Part shown: positions 634 to 12,794 of the stretch, piece by piece
Position numbering within the stretch: the first letter of the stretch is position 1
Layout: each line of letters starts with the position of its first letter
DNA from: Gammaproteobacteria bacterium
GTDB lineage: Bacteria > Pseudomonadota > Gammaproteobacteria > Eutrophobiales > Eutrophobiaceae
Direction: 5' to 3'
DNA length: 64,000 nt
NCBI GenBank assembly: GCA_022826885.1
Contig: JAJDUB010000002.1
Coordinates: forward strand, 62,001 to 126,000
Position numbers and translations under genes: made by a program
The notes under the pieces: model-generated
Told to the model about the DNA's origin: nothing
The model's database searches: none
The model's input: the letters and a program-made list of their open reading frames with translations, nothing else

Positions 634-2370
634 TTATAATTTTGGCTCGTTCTGTTCAGTAGAACATATGCTAAACTCAGGATGGCGGTCTCCCAGGGCG
701 AACCTTATGGGTTTTTTTGATGTTTGTTGAATCAGCCCTTCCTGTAAAGCCTGTTCCAGCCACTTTTTTGCCTGATTGCGTACAAGCCCTAGTGCTTCCT
801 CAATCTCTTTAGGTCTAAGTTCCTGGACTCCAAAAATATTAGGTAATTGTCGACAAAACTCTTGGTATAAAGCATATTTCTCGTACGATACAGGGCCTAT
901 AACACTTTCAGCAGGTTCCCTGACTGAGGTTAAATGTTCAGCCAACTTTGTCTCATCAGTTGGCTTATATGTACCATAGGTCTGACGGCCAATTTTGGTG
1001 ACATAAATAGTCTGACCATTAAAAATCTTAAGACGCCATGCTCGTGCTGTGGTTGATTTTGTGACGGGTTTCGGATCAGGCAAAGTAGTAATTAAGGCCG
1101 GTATAGAACCACCCAAAAGAATTTCTTTTTTACTATTTTCGGAAAGATCTGAGAAGATCGACGAAACGGATGTCAGTGGATGGATTGGGCTCTTATCAGC
1201 TTTGTCAGGCCCTTGACTAACGCGGGTTGCAATCTCCTTGATGTACTTAGCGTCTTGAACTTGAAGCCATGGTTGTGGTAGCCATTCTACACCAGAAAGA
1301 CACCCCATCAGGCCACCAGTCATCGCTGCGAGGGTGTCTGTATCCGCTCCTTTCTCGAAAGCGGCTCTTAGTATTCCCTGTACCGGCTGTGCCGCGTGGC
1401 GCGCAACCAGATATATTGCTGCTGCAGCACTGCTGGTTCCTGCTCCTTTGCTGCGACCAAAGCATCCGAGTTCTTTCAATACCTCGTGATCATTCGCTAG
1501 TGCTCCAGCCTTTAATCCTTCTCTAGCTTTATCAAGCAATGTGAACATTTCATCATTCGTTTTTTTCCAGACTGCTTGATATGAATCTTCCTTGACACTC
1601 TTTGCTGCATCAAACCAGATATTCTCATTCTGTTCCAGGTCTGGGAATTTGCTCCACCTGCTTCTCTCATCTATAAGAGCATCCAGCAATTCACCGAACC
1701 TCAGTGTAGTGTCCTTGCGCACCAGCGACCATGCAGCATAGGCATAAGCCTTCGCCCCAACAAGAGCGCGAGGATGACCGTGTGTGGCCATACCGTCAAG
1801 AACCACATCATGCATCAGAGTCTCAGGGTTCTCAAATCCAGCAAGAAACAGAGCATGTGGCAAAATACGCATTGTGACCCCGTTACCGCCAGCGTCGAAG
1901 TATCGACGAACATCAGCCCGCGATTTTGATTTCCAAGGCGCTGAACCATCGCTCCACGCTTTGGCTGCGCGCTTGGTGGCACCACCGCCTCCACGTTCAT
2001 ATAATATCCAAAGCGGAAGTTCCATTTTTGTAAAAGCGCTCCACCATGCCGTCCCATGATTTATCCTACTACGTGCGACCGCTAGTGTGAGTTGGGTGTC
2101 ATCACTGTAATCCCCAGCATGAATGACTTCTTCGTAGGCTTGATAGCGGGTTCCACCGCGTCGCGTCCATTCCCAGAAGTCTATATGTGCAACCTTGCGC
2201 ACAGGTTTTATTTTAACTTTACTCGGTATCTCCTGAGGCCAGCCTAGCGCATCACCGGCAGCAAGCGCTAGAAAGGCTCCCTCAGCTTTAGAACGTGATA
2301 ATGTCGATTCATACACTTGATTGTCACTGTTATCAGTCATTGGAATCTCCGTGTTGATGCTTGCGTTCAT
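634..2370 (-). CDS. ADP-ribosylglycohydrolase (DraG/ADP-ribosyl-GH superfamily) with about 200-aa C-terminal extension
   Basis: N-terminal GAFLALAAGDALGWPQE, metal-binding YSDDTQLTLAV, GNGVTMRILPHA and KGADTDTLAAMTGGLMG motifs. An alternative start at 2340 would leave an 8-bp overlap with the upstream gene. Confidence 0.88.
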   Translation of the reverse strand: MNASINTEIPMTDNSDNQVYESTLSRSKAEGAFLALAAGDALGWPQEIPSKVKIKPVRKVAHIDFWEWTRRGGTRYQAYEEVIHAGDYSDDTQLTLAVARSRINHGTAWWSAFTKMELPLWILYERGGGGATKRAAKAWSDGSAPWKSKSRADVRRYFDAGGNGVTMRILPHALFLAGFENPETLMHDVVLDGMATHGHPRALVGAKAYAYAAWSLVRKDTTLRFGELLDALIDERSRWSKFPDLEQNENIWFDAAKSVKEDSYQAVWKKTNDEMFTLLDKAREGLKAGALANDHEVLKELGCFGRSKGAGTSSAAAAIYLVARHAAQPVQGILRAAFEKGADTDTLAAMTGGLMGCLSGVEWLPQPWLQVQDAKYIKEIATRVSQGPDKADKSPIHPLTSVSSIFSDLSENSKKEILLGGSIPALITTLPDPKPVTKSTTARAWRLKIFNGQTIYVTKIGRQTYGTYKPTDETKLAEHLTSVREPAESVIGPVSYEKYALYQEFCRQLPNIFGVQELRPKEIEEALGLVRNQAKKWLEQALQEGLIQQTSKKPIRFALGDRHPEFSICSTEQNEPKL

Positions 2371-3040
2371 TCGGAATTATTCCGTTACGCAAACACTGAC
2401 TAAGCTCGTGTGGATTAAAGAATTCAGAAATGATATAAATTGGAGGGTAATTCCAGCCAAGAAGTTTAAGACGTAACCCTTCCCGTTTGGCCTGATCATC
2501 ATCCTGAACGGCAATGCCGATCACATCCTCTTGTTGTATGAGATCTGGAACTAGTACCTCTGCTTGTTGGTCAGTGGGCAGAAAAGCCGGATGACGTGAA
2601 CCACGTGTAAATGTGTGAGAACCTTCAACAGTCTCGGCGAACAATGCATTAAACCCTTGGAGGCCTTCTTTGACTAATTGGCCGTATTCGGAAGCAGCAT
2701 TACGGTGGCAGAATTTCGTTCCTGTACGCCACAAATAGCGCGGATTTATTAACAGTACCACCCAGTCTAAAAAAAGTGGCTCCTGACCTCGCGCTTTTCT
2801 GAAGTACCAAGCATTCGGATATTGGACTGAGCAACACACATGGTCAGGATAGCCGTCAAGACGTTTTATGTCTGTGGGATTGAAAACGGCTTTCTCGTTC
2901 CGCTCTAGGTGTATGGAAGCGAGAATGCCTTTGGAATCTGTCGCAATATGTGCAAGATTTCGTGAAGGGGTGAAATGGCAAAGACGTGTGATTTCCCGTC
3001 TATTCACCTCAGTCCGTATTGAATCTATTTTGTTGGTCAT
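2333..3040 (-). CDS. DarT-like (DUF4433) ADP-ribosyltransferase
   Basis: N-terminal REITRLCHFTPSRNLAHIATDSKGI resembles the DarT/DUF4433 NAD-binding start; C-terminal QQAEVLVPDLI resembles the DarT QAE[FV]LV catalytic-glutamate motif. Overlaps both neighbours. Confidence 0.75.
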   Translation of the reverse strand: MTNKIDSIRTEVNRREITRLCHFTPSRNLAHIATDSKGILASIHLERNEKAVFNPTDIKRLDGYPDHVCCSVQYPNAWYFRKARGQEPLFLDWVVLLINPRYLWRTGTKFCHRNAASEYGQLVKEGLQGFNALFAETVEGSHTFTRGSRHPAFLPTDQQAEVLVPDLIQQEDVIGIAVQDDDQAKREGLRLKLLGWNYPPIYIISEFFNPHELSQCLRNGIIPNERKHQHGDSND

Positions 3041-4428
3041 TGCTTATACAGACTTTTGTTTTTTGGTAAGAGTGAAGTCAAATTTCCCGAATATGTAAGC
3101 ACTAGTGTCGATCTGGCCCGTGTTATACCTACATACAGAAGACGGGAGTCCCGCGCCGCCACCTCCTGTTCTCCTAGGAGATCAACATCAGGTTGATAAG
3201 GCCAATTTTTATCAGACAGAAAGGGCAAGAACACTGTATCGAATTCCAAACCTTTCGCTGCGTGATATGTTCCATAGAAAAGTCCTGGACCAGTTGGCCA
3301 CTTATCGAGATCACGATGTAACCTCTTCGCTGAGCGCGGTAGATATCGTCTAAGCATGTTCTCTTGATCTCGCGTCCTTAATAGTATGGCGGCTGTTCCG
3401 GTCTCTGCCAGTTTCTTCGCATTAGATATAACAAATTCCTGTTCTTTAGATTCAATTGAAAGTTTCTCAAGTGCAGGAAGCGGCCCATCAGCAGCAGGTG
3501 ATTTTGGTTCGACAAGGTCCGGATCTACCGGGAAATTCGGCATCTCCGCGAGTGCTAGCGCAAGTTGGGCGATCTGCTTTGTATTTCGATAGTTCTCTTC
3601 GAATTGCCAAATTTTTGGCACGATAAATCCGGCAGATCGCCAAGATGTCCTATAGCCGTATATTTGTTGAGCAATATCACCGAAAAAAGTGATGCTTCCA
3701 TCATCCGGAATCGCGAGCGCAAGTGACCGCAACATCTCGGGAGAGAAATCCTGGCCTTCGTCTATGATGATATGGCGGTAAAGACGCTCTTGTTTATCAG
3801 TTTCAAATTCTTTGCGTACCGCGCTTGCCAGATCGCTCCAATCGTATAACTTTCCTGCTTTCTCGCGTCGAATTAGATAATTCTTATATAGTTTGAATAT
3901 TATTGAACGTGTATCTTTAGCGATACGGTGCACTCTGCCTATGCGTTCCACAGTCAGATAGTCTTGCTCATCGGATATGCCGTGTTGTTGAATCCATTGA
4001 AATTCCTCATCGAAAAATCTTTCAGGTCGCTTCAGTATAGAGTTTTGTACCCCTGTTTTTCGCGCGTCATTTAATGTCAGCCGAATTAGTTTTATACGCT
4101 CGTCAGGACTACAAATGCAACTATTAGGTAACTGATTTCTTGATGCGAGATATCCTCGTGCGAAGAGGTGATAATTTTCTATATTGATTGGTTGTCTGAC
4201 TGCAGTGGCTAGATGTTTCATGTACGTGATCAGACATCGGTTAAAAGTCAAGAGCAATGTGTTCCCGCCATGTGTAGTAGCGGGATCGGATAAATAAAGA
4301 GACCGCAGAATAGCAAGGACCGTTTTACCGCTTCCAGCGGTACCTAGTACAACTGTATGTCCCTGAGCCGGTAAGTATAAAACCTCTTTTTGCCGTCCTC
4401 TCGGCTGTGGCAATGAAGTAACAGTCAT
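3037..4428 (-). CDS. UvrD/Rep-like superfamily 1 helicase
   Basis: Walker A GTAGSGKT, DEGQDFSPEML, GDIAQQIYGYR, YGTYHAAKGLEFDTVFLPFL, LLYVGITRARSTLVLT motifs. Confidence 0.88.
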   Translation of the reverse strand: MTVTSLPQPRGRQKEVLYLPAQGHTVVLGTAGSGKTVLAILRSLYLSDPATTHGGNTLLLTFNRCLITYMKHLATAVRQPINIENYHLFARGYLASRNQLPNSCICSPDERIKLIRLTLNDARKTGVQNSILKRPERFFDEEFQWIQQHGISDEQDYLTVERIGRVHRIAKDTRSIIFKLYKNYLIRREKAGKLYDWSDLASAVRKEFETDKQERLYRHIIIDEGQDFSPEMLRSLALAIPDDGSITFFGDIAQQIYGYRTSWRSAGFIVPKIWQFEENYRNTKQIAQLALALAEMPNFPVDPDLVEPKSPAADGPLPALEKLSIESKEQEFVISNAKKLAETGTAAILLRTRDQENMLRRYLPRSAKRLHRDLDKWPTGPGLFYGTYHAAKGLEFDTVFLPFLSDKNWPYQPDVDLLGEQEVAARDSRLLYVGITRARSTLVLTYSGNLTSLLPKNKSLYKQ

Positions 4429-4833
4429 TAATCATAATTCCAAATTTGCACATAAGGAAAATTATAACTGACCGAAAAAACTTATTCTATTTAAGAAATT
4501 GGCAACCAGTACAGTATGGGGTCAGACCAGACTAACCTGGCATAACCTACTGATAATTAGGAGAAAATATCCCATAAACAGACATTGTACTACGCTTAGA
4601 CTGCGTTTTTCACACCAAAACAGGATTTTAAGGGGGTAGTATCATAAGTTCCACAAGCAGGCCGCACCGGTTCAGCAGTAACGCTGCCAAACAGGTATGG
4701 GAATCTTACAATCTCTGCTTTGCCGGGAAAAAATGGTGTTTAAGGAGAAATAACGGGTACATACGGCACACAAACAGATTAGAAACAAATAGTCAGAGAG
4801 GTCCGACCCTTCCCTGACCCTGATTTTCGTGTA

Positions 4834-7155
4834 TCAGGTTGATTCCCATAAGCCATTAACAAATTTAAAATCGTGAGGTTGCTCAGTCTTGCTGAGGATC
4901 ATTTTCGCTAACGAAATTCCAGCATTTTTATCAAGTTCTTCGTTGGAACGAGGCGGAACGATGCAGTTGGGACAACCTTTCGAACACTTGCAATTTTTAG
5001 CTACATCAATCCCAACATTCAGAATATTGCGCCATCGCTCGAATGCCTTGCGAGCAATACCTATACCACCCGGATAGCTCTCAACAATATATGCCTTCTG
5101 ATCCTTTGCCACTGCATGAGGAAATATGTCATGGGCATCAAGCGGGATCGAAAAAAGAGCCCCAACGCGTAACAACTGCTGAAGTGCAGTTATACCCATA
5201 GCTGCCATATTTGAAGGCGTCTCATCCTGCACCCAGAACGCGTGTGCGTTATCGAACTTCGCCGAGTTGGTGCTAGGTTTCCATCGGTCTTGTACTTCAC
5301 CCGTACGTTCGTCAACTTCTTCAATGGAATTCAGTGCTTCAGTAATCAGCACCTTGCCAAAAAAAACACTAACAACAGCGCCATTTAAAATCCACCTTCG
5401 CGCATCATAGATATCCTGCTCTGCAACTGTAGTAAAGATAGCAGGGTGTGTTCTTAAATATGGTTCTGCCGATCCCAAATTAATCTCACCACCGTTACCG
5501 GTTAAAGAAATCTCTTTGACACGATAGGTTCGGCCACCATGCATATATATAGCGCGTTGATACGCTTCGCGGAACTGTTGTTGGCCCGATAATGTCCCGA
5601 TCTCTTGAGAACCCTCTTTCAATATGAAACTGCCACTGACACCGCCTCGGATATTAACAGCAGAATGAGGCCGCCATTTTCCGGATTTTACCGGCTGGGC
5701 GCCTGATTCCTTTTTCTTTACTACAGAGTCATACAAAACAGGTCCAAGAATTTCGATGCTGTCATCCTTAACAGCGGACGTCTCGAATAAAAGTGATGGA
5801 AGGTGTTTTTCAATTATGTCTTCATTACCCGGGTTGACAACGAGATCATCAAACGGTTTGTTTAAAAATGTCTCAAGGTTAAAAGCATAAAAGCGATCGA
5901 GTGGATTGTTTCGAGCGAAATATAGAACGAATGCGTCACTGTTCCAATTTCGGCCAGCACGCCCTATCCTCTGCCATGCTGACATCATACTATCAGGAAA
6001 ACCCGCAAGAATTACACCGTCAAGTCCGCCAATATCAATACCTAATTCAAGGGCATTAGTAGTAAATACTAAACGCACATTGCCATTCTTGAGTCCTTCT
6101 TGCACACTGTGTCGTTCTTCTGTGCTGAGACCTGCTCTGAATACTTTTATTTTTTCAGGGTCAACGAGATTACTCCCATCTTCTTTTAGTTTTTCTATTT
6201 CTCGCATAGCTGAATGATGACATTCCTCAGCAAATTTCCGGGTTGGACAGAACGCAAGAATGGACTTCCCATTTATCAAACAGGCAAGACCTGCCTTGAC
6301 TGTACGAAGTTGCAATATCTCCCAGTATTGATAATCACGAATATCAGGTTGTACAAATGTAAAATATCGACGAGGCCGCATGCTGTTGCTTGCATTCACT
6401 TCCTGAAATTCCAGGCCGGTCAGATTTTCTGCGTGCTCTCTGGCATTGGCGCACGTTGCCGAACAAAGAAAAAACTGTGGATGGATATTATTTTCGGCAA
6501 GATGATGCGCAAAACGACGTAGAATCATTGCCACGTTGGAACCGAAATACCCTCGATACTCATGGATCTCATCCACAATAACCCATTCAAGCCCCTGGTA
6601 AAACTTCTGCCACTGGTCCGAGTGCCCAAGAAAGCTGTTATGTAGCATATCGGGATTAGTGATCAGAATGCGAGGTGGGGATTTTCGAAGTATAGGGCGT
6701 TGTTCACGATCAGTATCTCCATCATACCACCAAGATTCAATCTTCCGGCCACGCCCAGGAAGCACATCTGTGAGTCTGGACAATTGATCACGCTGGTCTA
6801 ATGCCAATGCTTTATTCGGATATATCATCAATCCGTAGGTATGAGGTTTCTCAATAAGCGATTGGAGCATGGGCACTTGAAAAGAGAGTGTTTTGCCACT
6901 GGCAGTTGGTGCCTGCAATACAACATTGTCGCCTTCAAGGGCTGCTCGAATTGCTTCAGCTTGATGCTGATAAAACTTGGTTATTTCCCTTCGCTCTAAT
7001 CCGATAATGAGTTCTTTTGAAAGAACATCAAATATCGATTCATCCGAGTAGCTTGGAGAAATGGCAGGTAACGTTTTTTGAACGACGAAATCACTACCCA
7101 AATCGCCATCACGAATTGCGTCAAACTGCCTCAATATTTCAAGGATGTTATTCAT
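4834..7155 (-). CDS. DEXH helicase with C-terminal DUF1998-like Cys cluster (MrfA/YprA/Hrq1-like)
   Basis: [65 protein letters not shown]-terminal CKCSKGCPNCIVPPRSNEELDK. Confidence 0.88.
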   Translation of the reverse strand: MNNILEILRQFDAIRDGDLGSDFVVQKTLPAISPSYSDESIFDVLSKELIIGLERREITKFYQHQAEAIRAALEGDNVVLQAPTASGKTLSFQVPMLQSLIEKPHTYGLMIYPNKALALDQRDQLSRLTDVLPGRGRKIESWWYDGDTDREQRPILRKSPPRILITNPDMLHNSFLGHSDQWQKFYQGLEWVIVDEIHEYRGYFGSNVAMILRRFAHHLAENNIHPQFFLCSATCANAREHAENLTGLEFQEVNASNSMRPRRYFTFVQPDIRDYQYWEILQLRTVKAGLACLINGKSILAFCPTRKFAEECHHSAMREIEKLKEDGSNLVDPEKIKVFRAGLSTEERHSVQEGLKNGNVRLVFTTNALELGIDIGGLDGVILAGFPDSMMSAWQRIGRAGRNWNSDAFVLYFARNNPLDRFYAFNLETFLNKPFDDLVVNPGNEDIIEKHLPSLLFETSAVKDDSIEILGPVLYDSVVKKKESGAQPVKSGKWRPHSAVNIRGGVSGSFILKEGSQEIGTLSGQQQFREAYQRAIYMHGGRTYRVKEISLTGNGGEINLGSAEPYLRTHPAIFTTVAEQDIYDARRWILNGAVVSVFFGKVLITEALNSIEEVDERTGEVQDRWKPSTNSAKFDNAHAFWVQDETPSNMAAMGITALQQLLRVGALFSIPLDAHDIFPHAVAKDQKAYIVESYPGGIGIARKAFERWRNILNVGIDVAKNCKCSKGCPNCIVPPRSNEELDKNAGISLAKMILSKTEQPHDFKFVNGLWEST

Positions 7156-7165
7156 TTAACCACCT

Positions 7166-7801
7166 TCAAAATTCAGGCGGACATCCACTTTGCACCCACT
7201 TGAACATCTCGCTCAATCGTTCTTGGGTCGGTAGGTCAAACGTTTCTGTTTCCGTATGCCCTTCTGAGATTTTTTTCTCAGTCATCCATCCCAGGAACGT
7301 ATAATAATCAGTTTCCAGTTTCGCCTTGCCAGGAAGCTCACAACCCGCTTCTACACTAAGAAAATTCCTGAGTTTTTCGATTACAAGCTGAGGATCATCC
7401 TTATGGAATTCGACATCGGCTCCTGCTAAATCCGAGAGTGCCCTTTTCAGATCGTATTGGTCTTTTTCGAAGATAATGAATTTTTTTCCGTCAGTGCGTT
7501 TATCCGATGATCGACGGAATCCCATATCTATCCCGAATTCAAACGGCATGTTCATCCGGAATATTTCGCCTTCTTTCTCGGCCTTGCATCTGCTCAGGTC
7601 ATGAACCGAGTATGCACAAGAGGATATTAATCCAATAATCTTGTCTAGGCGATTTTCCCCGCTTTCGAGACTCTCAGTCGAAAATCTTGGCTTGAGCCCC
7701 GCGTAGACAATACAGAAAATGATAACTTCTAGTAATGGCGCAAAGTCATCATCAATTGGGCAGTTAATGAAAACATTCTTTTCGAAATCTATATCGGACA
7801 A
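7166..7801 (-). CDS. TIR-like / nucleoside 2-deoxyribosyltransferase-like protein, candidate NAD-processing effector
   Basis: FINCPIDDDFAPLLEVIIFCIVYAGLKPR... NRLDKIIGLISSCAYSVHDLSR... RMNMPFEFGIDMG pattern. Family recalled from general knowledge; fold assignment tentative. Confidence 0.6.
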   Translation of the reverse strand: MSDIDFEKNVFINCPIDDDFAPLLEVIIFCIVYAGLKPRFSTESLESGENRLDKIIGLISSCAYSVHDLSRCKAEKEGEIFRMNMPFEFGIDMGFRRSSDKRTDGKKFIIFEKDQYDLKRALSDLAGADVEFHKDDPQLVIEKLRNFLSVEAGCELPGKAKLETDYYTFLGWMTEKKISEGHTETETFDLPTQERLSEMFKWVQSGCPPEF

Positions 7802-7804
7802 AGC

Positions 7805-8029
7805 TTAACCTTTACGATGCTCTAGGTCGTTTCCATAGGAATCACGTTCGCGAATTCTCCCGTCACGGCCATGTATGAATAATTCCGTTCCTTGATTTCT
7901 CGCGATTTTTCGACCTTCTTTAATGGCTTCACCCTCAGTGTCAAACGTGCCGGTGGCGCGACTCGACCCTGCTTTTCGGACACTCCACTTAGCGCCATTT
8001 GGAACTACATGCTGAGCCTTGTTACCCAT
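7805..8029 (-). CDS. DUF2188 domain protein
   Basis: HVVPNGAKWSVRKAGSSRATGTFDTEGEAIKEGRKIARNQGTELFIHGRDGRIRERDSYGND matches the DUF2188 pattern. Confidence 0.85.
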   Translation of the reverse strand: MGNKAQHVVPNGAKWSVRKAGSSRATGTFDTEGEAIKEGRKIARNQGTELFIHGRDGRIRERDSYGNDLEHRKG

Positions 8030-8191
8030 CTTGATACCTCTATCACATTGACTGATCGAATTATTGGTATTATAGGTCGCCTGCAGGAGCCGTACAAGCA
8101 GTAGGGAACTCTACGAGGGAACACGGGGTCGTTGGATGGGGGCGGACCAACATAACCCGCGTCGGATTGACGATATCTTGCGGCGAGCCAT

Positions 8192-9469
8192 TCAATTCGA
8201 CTCATGAAGTGGCAATGTTATGTCATCGTTTGGCAGTGCTCCATACCGGCCTTGCAAATAGCCTAATTCAATATTGTCGCCCTTGCGCGTTCGAATATCC
8301 GTCAGCGGATAGAGTTCCGTAGCTCCCTCCGGGGTCTTTTCAGTAAACCAGAGTTGATCGCGTCTCAGTACGGACGACTTCATCAGGTTGGTATTGTGAG
8401 TTGTCGCAATAAGCTGTGCGCCGTTTCGGTTTATCTCCGGCCGGCAGAATAACTTCAGTATCGCCTCACTGGCATAGGTGTGCAGGCTGGCATCCACTTC
8501 GTCTATGCATAGCAGAGTACCCTCATCCAATGCCTGGTATGCCAGGCTGAGCACTATCAATAACCGCCGTGTTCCGGCGCTTTCCGAATCCAGGTCAAGA
8601 TAAACCGACTCTCCCTGCCGGCCACGATGAGCCAGTTCAATAGCAACATGCTTATCATACTTGTCGGGTTCAATTTTTATGGTACCACCTGATAACTTTT
8701 CAACTATAGCAACTATGTCTCGACGCATTGCTCGATCTTTATCCGAAATATCAGTCTCCCTTTTTTGGTAACCAATAACTCCAGTATTGATAGATGTTAA
8801 GAATTCGATTACTCGTTGATCCGGATCATTTCCTGTATATAGTGCTGAAGCCGTTGTACTCGGTACTGAAATCGAACTGGCAAAATCAATTGACCTGAAA
8901 TACTCGTATATTTTTGATAGCTGCTCATGGCTGTTCTGTGCAGCCGCTGACAAAAACAGGCTATTGGGTCTGGTCAATTCGGCAATGTTGTTGTTCCGTC
9001 CCTTCAACCAGCGTCCAAAATTAAATTCGCCATTGTCGCGCTCGAACATCCTTCTGCGATGTGATCCGGGAAAAGCGTACAGCCACTCCGAGACAAAAAC
9101 GTCATCTGTCGTTTCAAATCCATAATGGTATCTTACGTCATCAATAACGAAGTCGATTTCGAACCTGGACGGGGTTTGCGAACAAGTTGAGTCAAGCTTA
9201 AATGCATCGCGTGGTACGCCACCACCGGGTTCACCCTGGGTATGCGACCACAATACCATTCCCTGCATGGCGGCTATTGCATTCACGACATTGGATTTGC
9301 CTGATGCATTGGCGCCATAGATCACTATCGCGGGTAAAACTGACCCGCTCGGCACCGCTTTGCAGTCAATCAGCCCATCGCTTCGATCTCTCAACGAAGA
9401 TGCGGCGAAGGACAATTCCTGCTTCTCGCGAATGGAAAGGTGATTTGCTACAGCAAAGCGTAACAGCAT
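8192..9469 (-). CDS. AAA family ATPase (AAA_21/AAA_15, RloA/Abi-like)
   Basis: GANASGKSNVVNAIAAM Walker A, GTLLCIDEVDASLHTYASEAIL Walker B, AGTRRLLIVL signature-like motif, QLIATTHNTNLM. Confidence 0.85.
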   Translation of the reverse strand: MLLRFAVANHLSIREKQELSFAASSLRDRSDGLIDCKAVPSGSVLPAIVIYGANASGKSNVVNAIAAMQGMVLWSHTQGEPGGGVPRDAFKLDSTCSQTPSRFEIDFVIDDVRYHYGFETTDDVFVSEWLYAFPGSHRRRMFERDNGEFNFGRWLKGRNNNIAELTRPNSLFLSAAAQNSHEQLSKIYEYFRSIDFASSISVPSTTASALYTGNDPDQRVIEFLTSINTGVIGYQKRETDISDKDRAMRRDIVAIVEKLSGGTIKIEPDKYDKHVAIELAHRGRQGESVYLDLDSESAGTRRLLIVLSLAYQALDEGTLLCIDEVDASLHTYASEAILKLFCRPEINRNGAQLIATTHNTNLMKSSVLRRDQLWFTEKTPEGATELYPLTDIRTRKGDNIELGYLQGRYGALPNDDITLPLHESN

Positions 9470-11913: not shown

Positions 11914-12294
11914 TCAACGGATCAATTCCACCGCAATATCCATATCGAGTGTGGCCCATGCCCGGTCTGCGGTAAGGACCCTGGTCTGCTCTCGAATTGC
12001 CAGAGCCAGGCAGGCACGGTCGCCGAGCGACAGCCCCGCATCCCGGGTTGTTGTACGCATCAAACCCGCTGTAATAGCGAGGGATTCGTCAAAAGGATAG
12101 ATATTAAGGCCGAAAGCCAGGAGGGATGCGCGGGCATCATCTTCGCTTGCACCAAGGTCAATATATCGTGTAATAACTTCGGAGGCGTTCACCGCTGATA
12201 TTATCCCGTCATTCAATGCCTGTGCCGCAATATCCGCTCCCTCTTCCTCAAAGGTGATCGCCAGCAGGGCAGAGCTGTCGAAGACGATACTCAT
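11914..12294 (-). CDS. PIN-domain toxin (VapC-like)
   Basis: MSIVFDSSALLAITFEEEG... NASEVITRYID... LSLGDRACLALAIREQTRVLTADRAW. Confidence 0.85.
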   Translation of the reverse strand: MSIVFDSSALLAITFEEEGADIAAQALNDGIISAVNASEVITRYIDLGASEDDARASLLAFGLNIYPFDESLAITAGLMRTTTRDAGLSLGDRACLALAIREQTRVLTADRAWATLDMDIAVELIR

Positions 12295-12794
12295 TCCTCC
12301 CCCCACATAGTCCGTCTGTCCTTGAGGAATTGATCGACAATGCTCACTCCCGATTTCTTATATTTTCTCATGCGGGACTGAACCTGTTCGACTGCAACGG
12401 CAGGAGAAACCACACGGAGTTCTCCTGCCTCAACACGGACCGTTACGCGGCCGTCTTCTTCCAGTTGCATCGCTTCGCGCATCTCAAGAGGAATCGAAAA
12501 CCGGCCGTCCGGCGCAACCCTGAACGACTGAGGCTCGACATCACAAGGTTTAGTGGACGAAACAGTCAACGGACCCGGTTGCAGTTTATGCCAGGCCCTC
12601 CAGTACTGGTACTGCGTGTTGGCAGTATTTGCATTGCCATTTTCTGCCGTGAAACGTTCTATGACTTCACGGCGCTTTGCAGGGCGATCCTTTTCGCGTG
12701 TAATCTCATCTGCAATTTCCCAGACCCGTCCGGTCTTGGTGCCGGGCCTGGGCCGGTGATATGGCGCTGCTTGGTCTACTGATGGATTTAGCAT
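12291..12794 (-). CDS. AbrB/SpoVT-type antitoxin with long N-terminal domain
   Basis: C-terminal FRVAPDGRFSIPLEMREAMQLEEDGRVTVRVEAGELRVVSP swapped-hairpin pattern; overlaps the PIN gene by 4 bp. Confidence 0.7.
   Translation of the reverse strand: MLNPSVDQAAPYHRPRPGTKTGRVWEIADEITREKDRPAKRREVIERFTAENGNANTANTQYQYWRAWHKLQPGPLTVSSTKPCDVEPQSFRVAPDGRFSIPLEMREAMQLEEDGRVTVRVEAGELRVVSPAVAVEQVQSRMRKYKKSGVSIVDQFLKDRRTMWGEE

Follow-up and report, generated by a model that had tools for sequence, protein, structure and literature searches.

The window analyzed here, a whole stretch of 64,000 nucleotides of gammaproteobacterial DNA (contig JAJDUB010000002.1), carries on its minus strand an operon of three genes, namely a compact superfamily 1 (SF1) helicase, a DarT-type ADP-ribosyltransferase and an ADP-ribosylglycohydrolase (GH) of the ARH/DraG fold. 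This helicase-DarT-GH operon looks like a widespread and undescribed three-part variant of the DarT toxin-antitoxin or anti-phage systems. Its transferase falls among the DarT1 members of the family, the guanine-type and NADAR-linked ones, and not with DarT2, and within the helicase-DarT lineage the position of the GH is in some cases taken by NADAR. The exchange between these two enzymes is the best evidence for the GH as eraser; neither it nor the DarT1-likeness of the transferase was part of the earlier note on this DNA, which had been made from the sequence alone. With modest confidence we favor the interpretation that the operon encodes a DarT1-type system of reversible base ADP-ribosylation, in which the ARH/DraG-fold enzyme stands in for NADAR as the eraser and the helicase works for the writer.

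A conserved operon of three overlapping genes

The three minus-strand open reading frames (ORFs) lie where the earlier note had placed them and overlap end to end: the helicase of 463 amino acids (aa) at 4428-3037, DarT of 235 aa at 3040-2333, and the GH ending at 634 and beginning at either 2370 (first ATG, 578 aa) or 2340 (568 aa). The helicase stop and the DarT start share the 4 bp ATGA (3037-3040), an overlap found in identical form in 45 of 70 helicase/DarT junctions of relatives. The overlap between DarT and the GH amounts to 38 bp with the first ATG and to 8 bp with that at 2340; the latter appears to be the likelier start because a Shine-Dalgarno-like GGAG motif precedes it at 2350-2347, the DarT stop codon following at 2335-2333. 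Upstream of the operon lies an intergenic region of 405 bp (4429-4833) with a promoter-like minus-strand match at 4613-4584, which is a match to the consensus only.

The neighborhood search suggested in the earlier note found the three genes to recur together. A scan of genomes, for which aligned DarT proteins were the sole query, recovered helicase, DarT and GH in that order at 58 of the best 80 loci by a hidden Markov model test, or at 59 if a locus with a DarT start called too far upstream (L078) is counted; the ranking by similarity to the window DarT favors such triads, and these counts describe the clade of the window DarT and not all DarTs. Some of the remaining loci are cut by contig ends. 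The triads among the best 80 loci span more than ten phyla, and the taxa in the locus list comprise Latescibacterota, Pseudomonadota, Acidobacteriota, Planctomycetota, Myxococcota, Cyanobacteriota, Armatimonadota, Chloroflexota, Bacteroidota/Rhodothermota, Ignavibacteriota, Zixiibacteriota, Thermodesulfobacteriota, Actinomycetota and Bacillota. The conservation of order and overlap among relatives rules out a chance adjacency, and that the three-gene operon is real and conserved is virtually certain.

A DarT1-type transferase and the exchange of its probable eraser

The middle ORF, recognized as DarT-like in the earlier note, matches the Pfam DarT profile (PF14487, DUF4433) with E=4.4e-17 and 62.9 bits against a cut-off of 22.5. 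In a phmmer comparison of this protein with the PDB sequences the only entry matched is 8baq (7e-23), the crystal structure of E. coli C7 DarT1, with no match to a DarT2, and the family profile likewise gives 6e-56 for DarT1 as against 0.003 or worse for the DarT2s. An AlphaFold model of the protein (predicted local distance difference test, pLDDT, 92.5) was compared with solved structures using Foldseek; it superimposes on 8baq with a template modelling (TM) score of 0.80, a root-mean-square deviation (rmsd) of 2.5 and 34% identity, whereas the DarT2 entries give target-normalised TM scores of 0.37-0.66, rmsd values of 5-7 and 15-17% identity. In the family tree, the triad DarTs group with the NADAR-linked DarT1s, opposite the macrodomain-linked DarT2s, the macrodomain linkage having been checked on four DarT2 rows of the tree.

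Residues essential in E. coli C7 DarT1, including E152, have been reported (PMC11543638), and the essential R52, N104 and E152 map to R60, N114 and E161 of the window protein. Glu161 (codon 2558-2560, minus strand) is the catalytic residue of the QAE motif, and Asn114 (codon 2699-2701, minus strand) corresponds to the base-contacting N104; both are invariant in 70 relatives. Together with R60, the arginine of the NAD-loop, they are also invariant in all 51 aligned helicase-DarT-GH members, with D62 being Asp or Glu. The motifs on which the earlier note had relied, namely QAEVLV in DarT and SDDT and GADTDT in the GH, sit at invariant or nearly invariant columns in alignments of 54-70 relatives, and the catalytic residues are intact.

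The third protein covers the full Pfam ADP_ribosyl_GH profile (PF03747, E=2.4e-42), and none of the three proteins shows a macrodomain match, in agreement with the proposal of a DraG-fold partner in place of the macrodomain. Its ARH/DraG catalytic domain (aa 31-366; 1273-2280, minus strand), delineated by Pfam and the alignment, contains E47, S89-D90-D91-T92 and D343-T344-D345, of which D90, D91, D343, D345 and the N-terminal E47 are invariant in the 54 GH members. The structure model (pLDDT 86.8) matches ARH3, MJ1187 and DraG in Foldseek, and the protein falls far below the equivalog cut-offs of dinitro_DRAG (70 bits versus 337) and Tri1 (35 bits versus 490). The catalytic domain is followed by a small beta module and by a C-terminus that varies, being VOC/glyoxalase-like in at least 30 of the 54 members and winged-helix-like in the window protein and those closest to it (accessory domain at aa 482-557; 700-927, minus strand; seen in the model and in a weak match to the PsyrA C-terminus with E=1.5e-5). 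In one Ignavibacteria locus (L048:6711-10946) the triad GH is fused to HsdM, a type I restriction methylase, and is followed by a 408-aa ORF.

No NADAR (PF22397) is found next to the window DarT, the putative eraser gene at this position being the PF03747 member; PF22397, described as the 'DarT1-associated NADAR', follows most of the non-triad DarTs of the set. Staphylococcus (L066, L067/L068) and Jeotgalicoccus (L085) have the order helicase-DarT-NADAR. The NADAR-linked DarTs of these Staphylococcaceae nest inside the GH-linked DarTs of Bacillota, next to that of Enterococcus mundtii (L071; support 99/98), their helicases fall within the triad helicase branch, and a single clade of all NADAR-linked DarTs is rejected by the approximately unbiased test (p-AU 0.00996). 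A second exchange is found in two gammaproteobacteria (L099 and L123), in which helicase and DarT are accompanied by a convergent NADAR gene on the opposite strand, and whose DarTs adjoin a second clade of GH-containing triads (L007/L011/L014; support 94/89). Since the NADAR of DarT1 removes ADP-ribose from guanine and shares its slot with the GH, the latter would most simply do the same job, and we regard it as probable that it reverses the product of DarT.

The helicase and the probable mobility of the module

The first gene of the operon encodes the UvrD-like SF1 helicase expected from the earlier note, with Pfam matches to UvrD_C (E=9e-21) and UvrD-helicase (E=4e-17) and with all SF1 motifs (I-VI) contained within its 463 aa (Walker A GTAGSGKT, IIIDEGQDF, GDIAQQIYG, ENYRN, TYHAAKGLEFD and LLYVGITRAR). 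By sequence its nearest solved structures are PcrA and UvrD; its scores fall far short of the equivalog cut-offs for PcrA, UvrD and Rep, and it is the equivalog of no named helicase. The NCBI product name '3'-5' exonuclease', borne for example by the copy in E. coli AR_0128, does not fit the window helicase, in which Pfam detects no nuclease domain.

The helicase remains coupled to DarT in L099 and L123 although NADAR lies on the other strand. Five cyanobacterial loci carry a DarT of a separate clade, usually at the C-terminal end of a longer ORF; four of these loci have a GH next to it, L093 being cut off by the end of its contig, and in four of the five the upstream gene codes for an SF1B (AAA_11/AAA_12) protein of about 1,250 aa. 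One such set, on the Nostoc plasmid NZ_CP040275 (L137:4477-23873), comprises an SF1B helicase (MkoA-like by PADLOC), DarT and GH and is flanked by pglX and pglZ within a BREX operon. As these loci pair DarT and GH with an SF1B helicase, the helicase itself has likewise been exchanged, with the three-part plan retained. In Anaerobiospirillum (L051:5959-7452), a single ORF joins DarT to part of a second helicase of the triad type, namely an N-terminal fragment, which hints at joint action of DarT and helicase; a continuation of this fragment was looked for in the tail and none was found. DarT enzymes need single-stranded DNA, which a helicase can make, and for this reason helicase-assisted writing is favored, the chances that the helicase indeed assists the writer being about even. 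Of the two functions that the earlier note had offered for the helicase, exposure of single strands for modification fits better, and the clearing of adducted forks fits poorly with the retention of the helicase beside DarT in L099 and L123.

The distribution of the system is patchy. A DarT of the same broad type as that of the window is present in 5 of 399 genomes drawn from the phylum of the window, these being one triad (the window), one helicase-DarT-NADAR locus (L099) and three without a helicase match. Plasmid-borne triads occur in Shinella, Streptomyces, Rhodococcus, Cereibacter and Salmonella, and the Salmonella version is found, at 99% identity or more, in 21 of 5,426 complete E. coli genomes, always on the chromosome; that of E. 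coli AR_0128 (L097), which belongs to a second subtype of the triad, resides in an island after ychF with integrases, insertion sequence elements and the RADAR gene rdrB. The window triad has its closest relatives in a phylum other than its own, with 68, 62 and 68% identity in DarT, GH and helicase, respectively, to the Latescibacterota locus L017. Pairwise distances of the three proteins are correlated (r=0.86-0.91), as expected for a unit moving together. No relatives of the window DarT were found in viral contigs and phage records. The patchy spread, plasmid carriage, cross-phylum relatives, BREX embedding and HsdM fusion together form a pattern typical of mobile modules for defence or addiction.

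Several further genes of the region deserve mention. Upstream of the operon, on the minus strand at 4834-9469, are candidate defence genes coding for a Zn helicase of the DEAD/MrfA type (TIGR03817-like), a protein of 211 aa that matches nothing in Pfam, a DUF2188 protein (PADLOC PDC-S16) and an AbiLi/AriA-like ATPase, which may form a system of their own. The window also contains a VapBC-like pair, with a PIN-domain toxin at 11914-12306 preceded by a putative antitoxin ORF at 12291-12794. A plus-strand ORF of 633 aa without a Pfam or PADLOC match (L136:14704-16605), which extends into the window at 1-605, is convergent with the triad, and ORF 90-605 of the window is merely its 3' end.

Proposed mechanism, alternatives and known systems

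The module would be a self-contained and horizontally mobile set of three genes for the reversible ADP-ribosylation of nucleic-acid bases. Its DarT1-type transferase would transfer ADP-ribose from NAD+ onto bases, the most likely one being guanine in single strands, with DNA rather than RNA as the presumed substrate, and this modification would keep an invader, or the cell itself, from replicating. The adduct would be taken off by the GH of the ARH/DraG fold, in the role that NADAR has in DarTG1, and the SF1 helicase, as the partner of the writer, would probably load on unusual or replicating DNA, unwind it and provide DarT with its single strand. An anti-phage or anti-plasmid defence role of the toxin-antitoxin kind is fairly probable; the BREX embedding in Nostoc, the GH-HsdM fusion at one locus and the E. 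coli island with integrase and RADAR make it plausible. The DarT-type toxin-antitoxin or anti-phage module postulated in the earlier note stands with respect to DarT, its ARH/DraG partner, their co-occurrence and their context, with toxicity of DarT and its neutralisation by the GH as predictions.

The known chemistry of the ARH/DraG fold bears on this proposal. ARH1 and DraG cleave ADP-ribose from arginine, and ARH1 and ARH3 prefer alpha-1'' linkages; because ADP-ribosyl-arginine is an N-glycoside of a guanidinium and the N2 of guanine belongs to a guanidine-like group, action of the GH on a guanine adduct would be chemically reasonable. Human ARH3 has low activity on synthetic uridine-ADP-ribose (PMC13036486), which suggests that activity of the fold on base-linked ADP-ribose is possible in principle. 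Several observations weigh against the favored interpretation. ARH-family enzymes (a human panel and SCO5809 of S. coelicolor) were inactive on RNA bearing guanine-linked ADP-ribose, and NADAR has been called the sole family able to remove guanine ADP-ribose from RNA (PMC11833690); ARH3 was also inactive on DNA bearing thymidine-linked ADP-ribose. Two residues that E. coli DarT1 has in its base or NAD pocket are changed in the triads: the position of M71 is Tyr in 47 of 51 and that of Y75 is mostly Ala or Val, the latter being variable among NADAR-linked DarT1s too. Asn104 by itself was discarded as proof of guanine specificity, as the DarT2 structure 7omu has an Asn there too. The triad counts carry the ranking bias toward window-like DarTs, and the neighbors of the triads are a mix of defence and ordinary genes: a scan of 80 neighbor proteins, run with no proper control, gave matches to pAgo, LmuB, RmrA, HsdS and PDC-S02 amid housekeeping genes, which does not amount to a statistical demonstration of defence-island enrichment. 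Guanine remains the leading candidate for the modified base, but its assignment is a good inference and not a demonstration, because the M71 and Y75 positions differ though R60, N114 and E161 are kept.

The same module might operate without the GH being the main base eraser, if the target of DarT were RNA, a phosphate end or a protein arginine and the modification were reversed by known ARH/DraG chemistry. This would accord with the known ARH enzymes, which remove ADP-ribose linked to arginine, serine or phosphate and, in reported tests, leave the guanine-linked form in place, and with the altered M71 and Y75 equivalents; however, the replacement of the GH within the same helicase-DarT lineage by NADAR, an eraser of guanine-linked ADP-ribose, and the invariance of the N104, R52 and E152 equivalents in the triads make it unlikely. 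The helicase could alternatively belong to the repair side, stripping stalled complexes from adducted DNA or unwinding it so that the eraser reaches the adduct, in protection of the host itself. Its best PDB relatives are PcrA and UvrD, and SF1A helicases of this type act in repair and fork clearance; yet the helicase gene is upstream of, and coupled by 4 bp to, DarT rather than the eraser, it stays with DarT in L099 and L123 despite the opposite orientation of NADAR, and the two-gene DarT1-NADAR systems do without it, so that a repair function seems quite unlikely. Very unlikely, finally, is a reversible regulator of the replication or stress response of the host itself instead of a defence system. 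Such a role has been proposed for DarTG2 of M. tuberculosis, which shares a transcript with DnaB and controls replication (PMC12170906), and many triads have ordinary genes as neighbors, but such a regulator agrees poorly with a distribution as patchy as one triad per 399 genomes of the phylum, with plasmid carriage and a DarT 68% identical to that of Latescibacterota across phyla, and with the BREX embedding and HsdM fusion.

Among the known systems, DarTG1 (DarT1-NADAR of E. coli C7) resembles the triad in its DarT1-type transferase with invariant Arg, Asn and Glu, in its adjacent eraser gene and in its side of the DarT tree, but it has NADAR where most triads have an ARH/DraG-fold enzyme, and the triads also differ from it by a regular SF1 helicase gene and some changed base-pocket residues. 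DarTG2 (DarT2-macrodomain, in T. aquaticus and M. tuberculosis) likewise combines a DarT-superfamily writer with an adjacent ADP-ribosylhydrolase; the triad, however, has no macrodomain, a DarT about 16% identical to the DarT2 structures and a helicase, and membership in DarTG2 is ruled out by Foldseek, phmmer and the family profile. DraT-DraG and the ART-ARH effector/immunity pairs (Tre1-Tri1, Listeria Lmo0067) also join an ADP-ribosyltransferase to an ARH/DraG-fold hydrolase, but they lack a helicase, and the triad GH is remote from their hydrolases by the equivalog cut-offs. The transferases of DraT-DraG and of Tre1-Tri1-type pairs are not DarTs and modify proteins. Gabija (GajAB) and other defence systems with UvrD-like helicases share the SF1 UvrD-like helicase, with PADLOC GajB matches down to E=5e-20; the triad has DarT as partner of its helicase and no GajA nuclease. 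Gabija was rejected for the window, where the helicase neighbors are DarT and the GH, and where three genes lie between the AbiLi-like ATPase (8192-9469) and the helicase. The comparison with PADLOC models recommended in the earlier note gave no matching system, with generic helicase matches only.

DarT-ARG linkage may have been noted before: ART linkages were surveyed by de Souza and Aravind (2012), ART genes linked to ARG hydrolases and ART-ARG toxin-antitoxin pairs in phages have been remarked on (PMC9503650), and DarT has been linked with 'different hydrolases' (PMC11543638). These share with the triad an ART gene beside an ARG hydrolase, and the available portions of those accounts contain no helicase triad, substrate assignment or eraser exchange. 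In a full-text search of open-access literature, neither the helicase triad nor the GH/NADAR exchange was found described, nor was an ARH that erases ADP-ribose from guanine.

In the literature consulted, the only erasers reported for ADP-ribosylation of DNA bases are macrodomains for thymine and NADARs for guanine. If the GH reverses the product of DarT, it would represent a third fold to do so, and the published negative result for ARH enzymes would hold for the tested members only. It is an even question whether this ARH/DraG-fold family is a dedicated eraser of base ADP-ribose, most likely at guanine N2, that stands in for NADAR in a widespread and undescribed helicase-driven DarT1 defence module. 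If true, this would contradict the view that NADAR alone reverses guanine ADP-ribosylation, and the guanidine-like geometry of guanine N2 offers a simple chemical reason to expect such activity. Intact copies of the triad occur in E. coli chromosomes, so that the prediction can be tested directly in laboratory E. coli. A DarT system with a helicase as a regular part would, furthermore, address the source of the single-stranded substrate of DarT.

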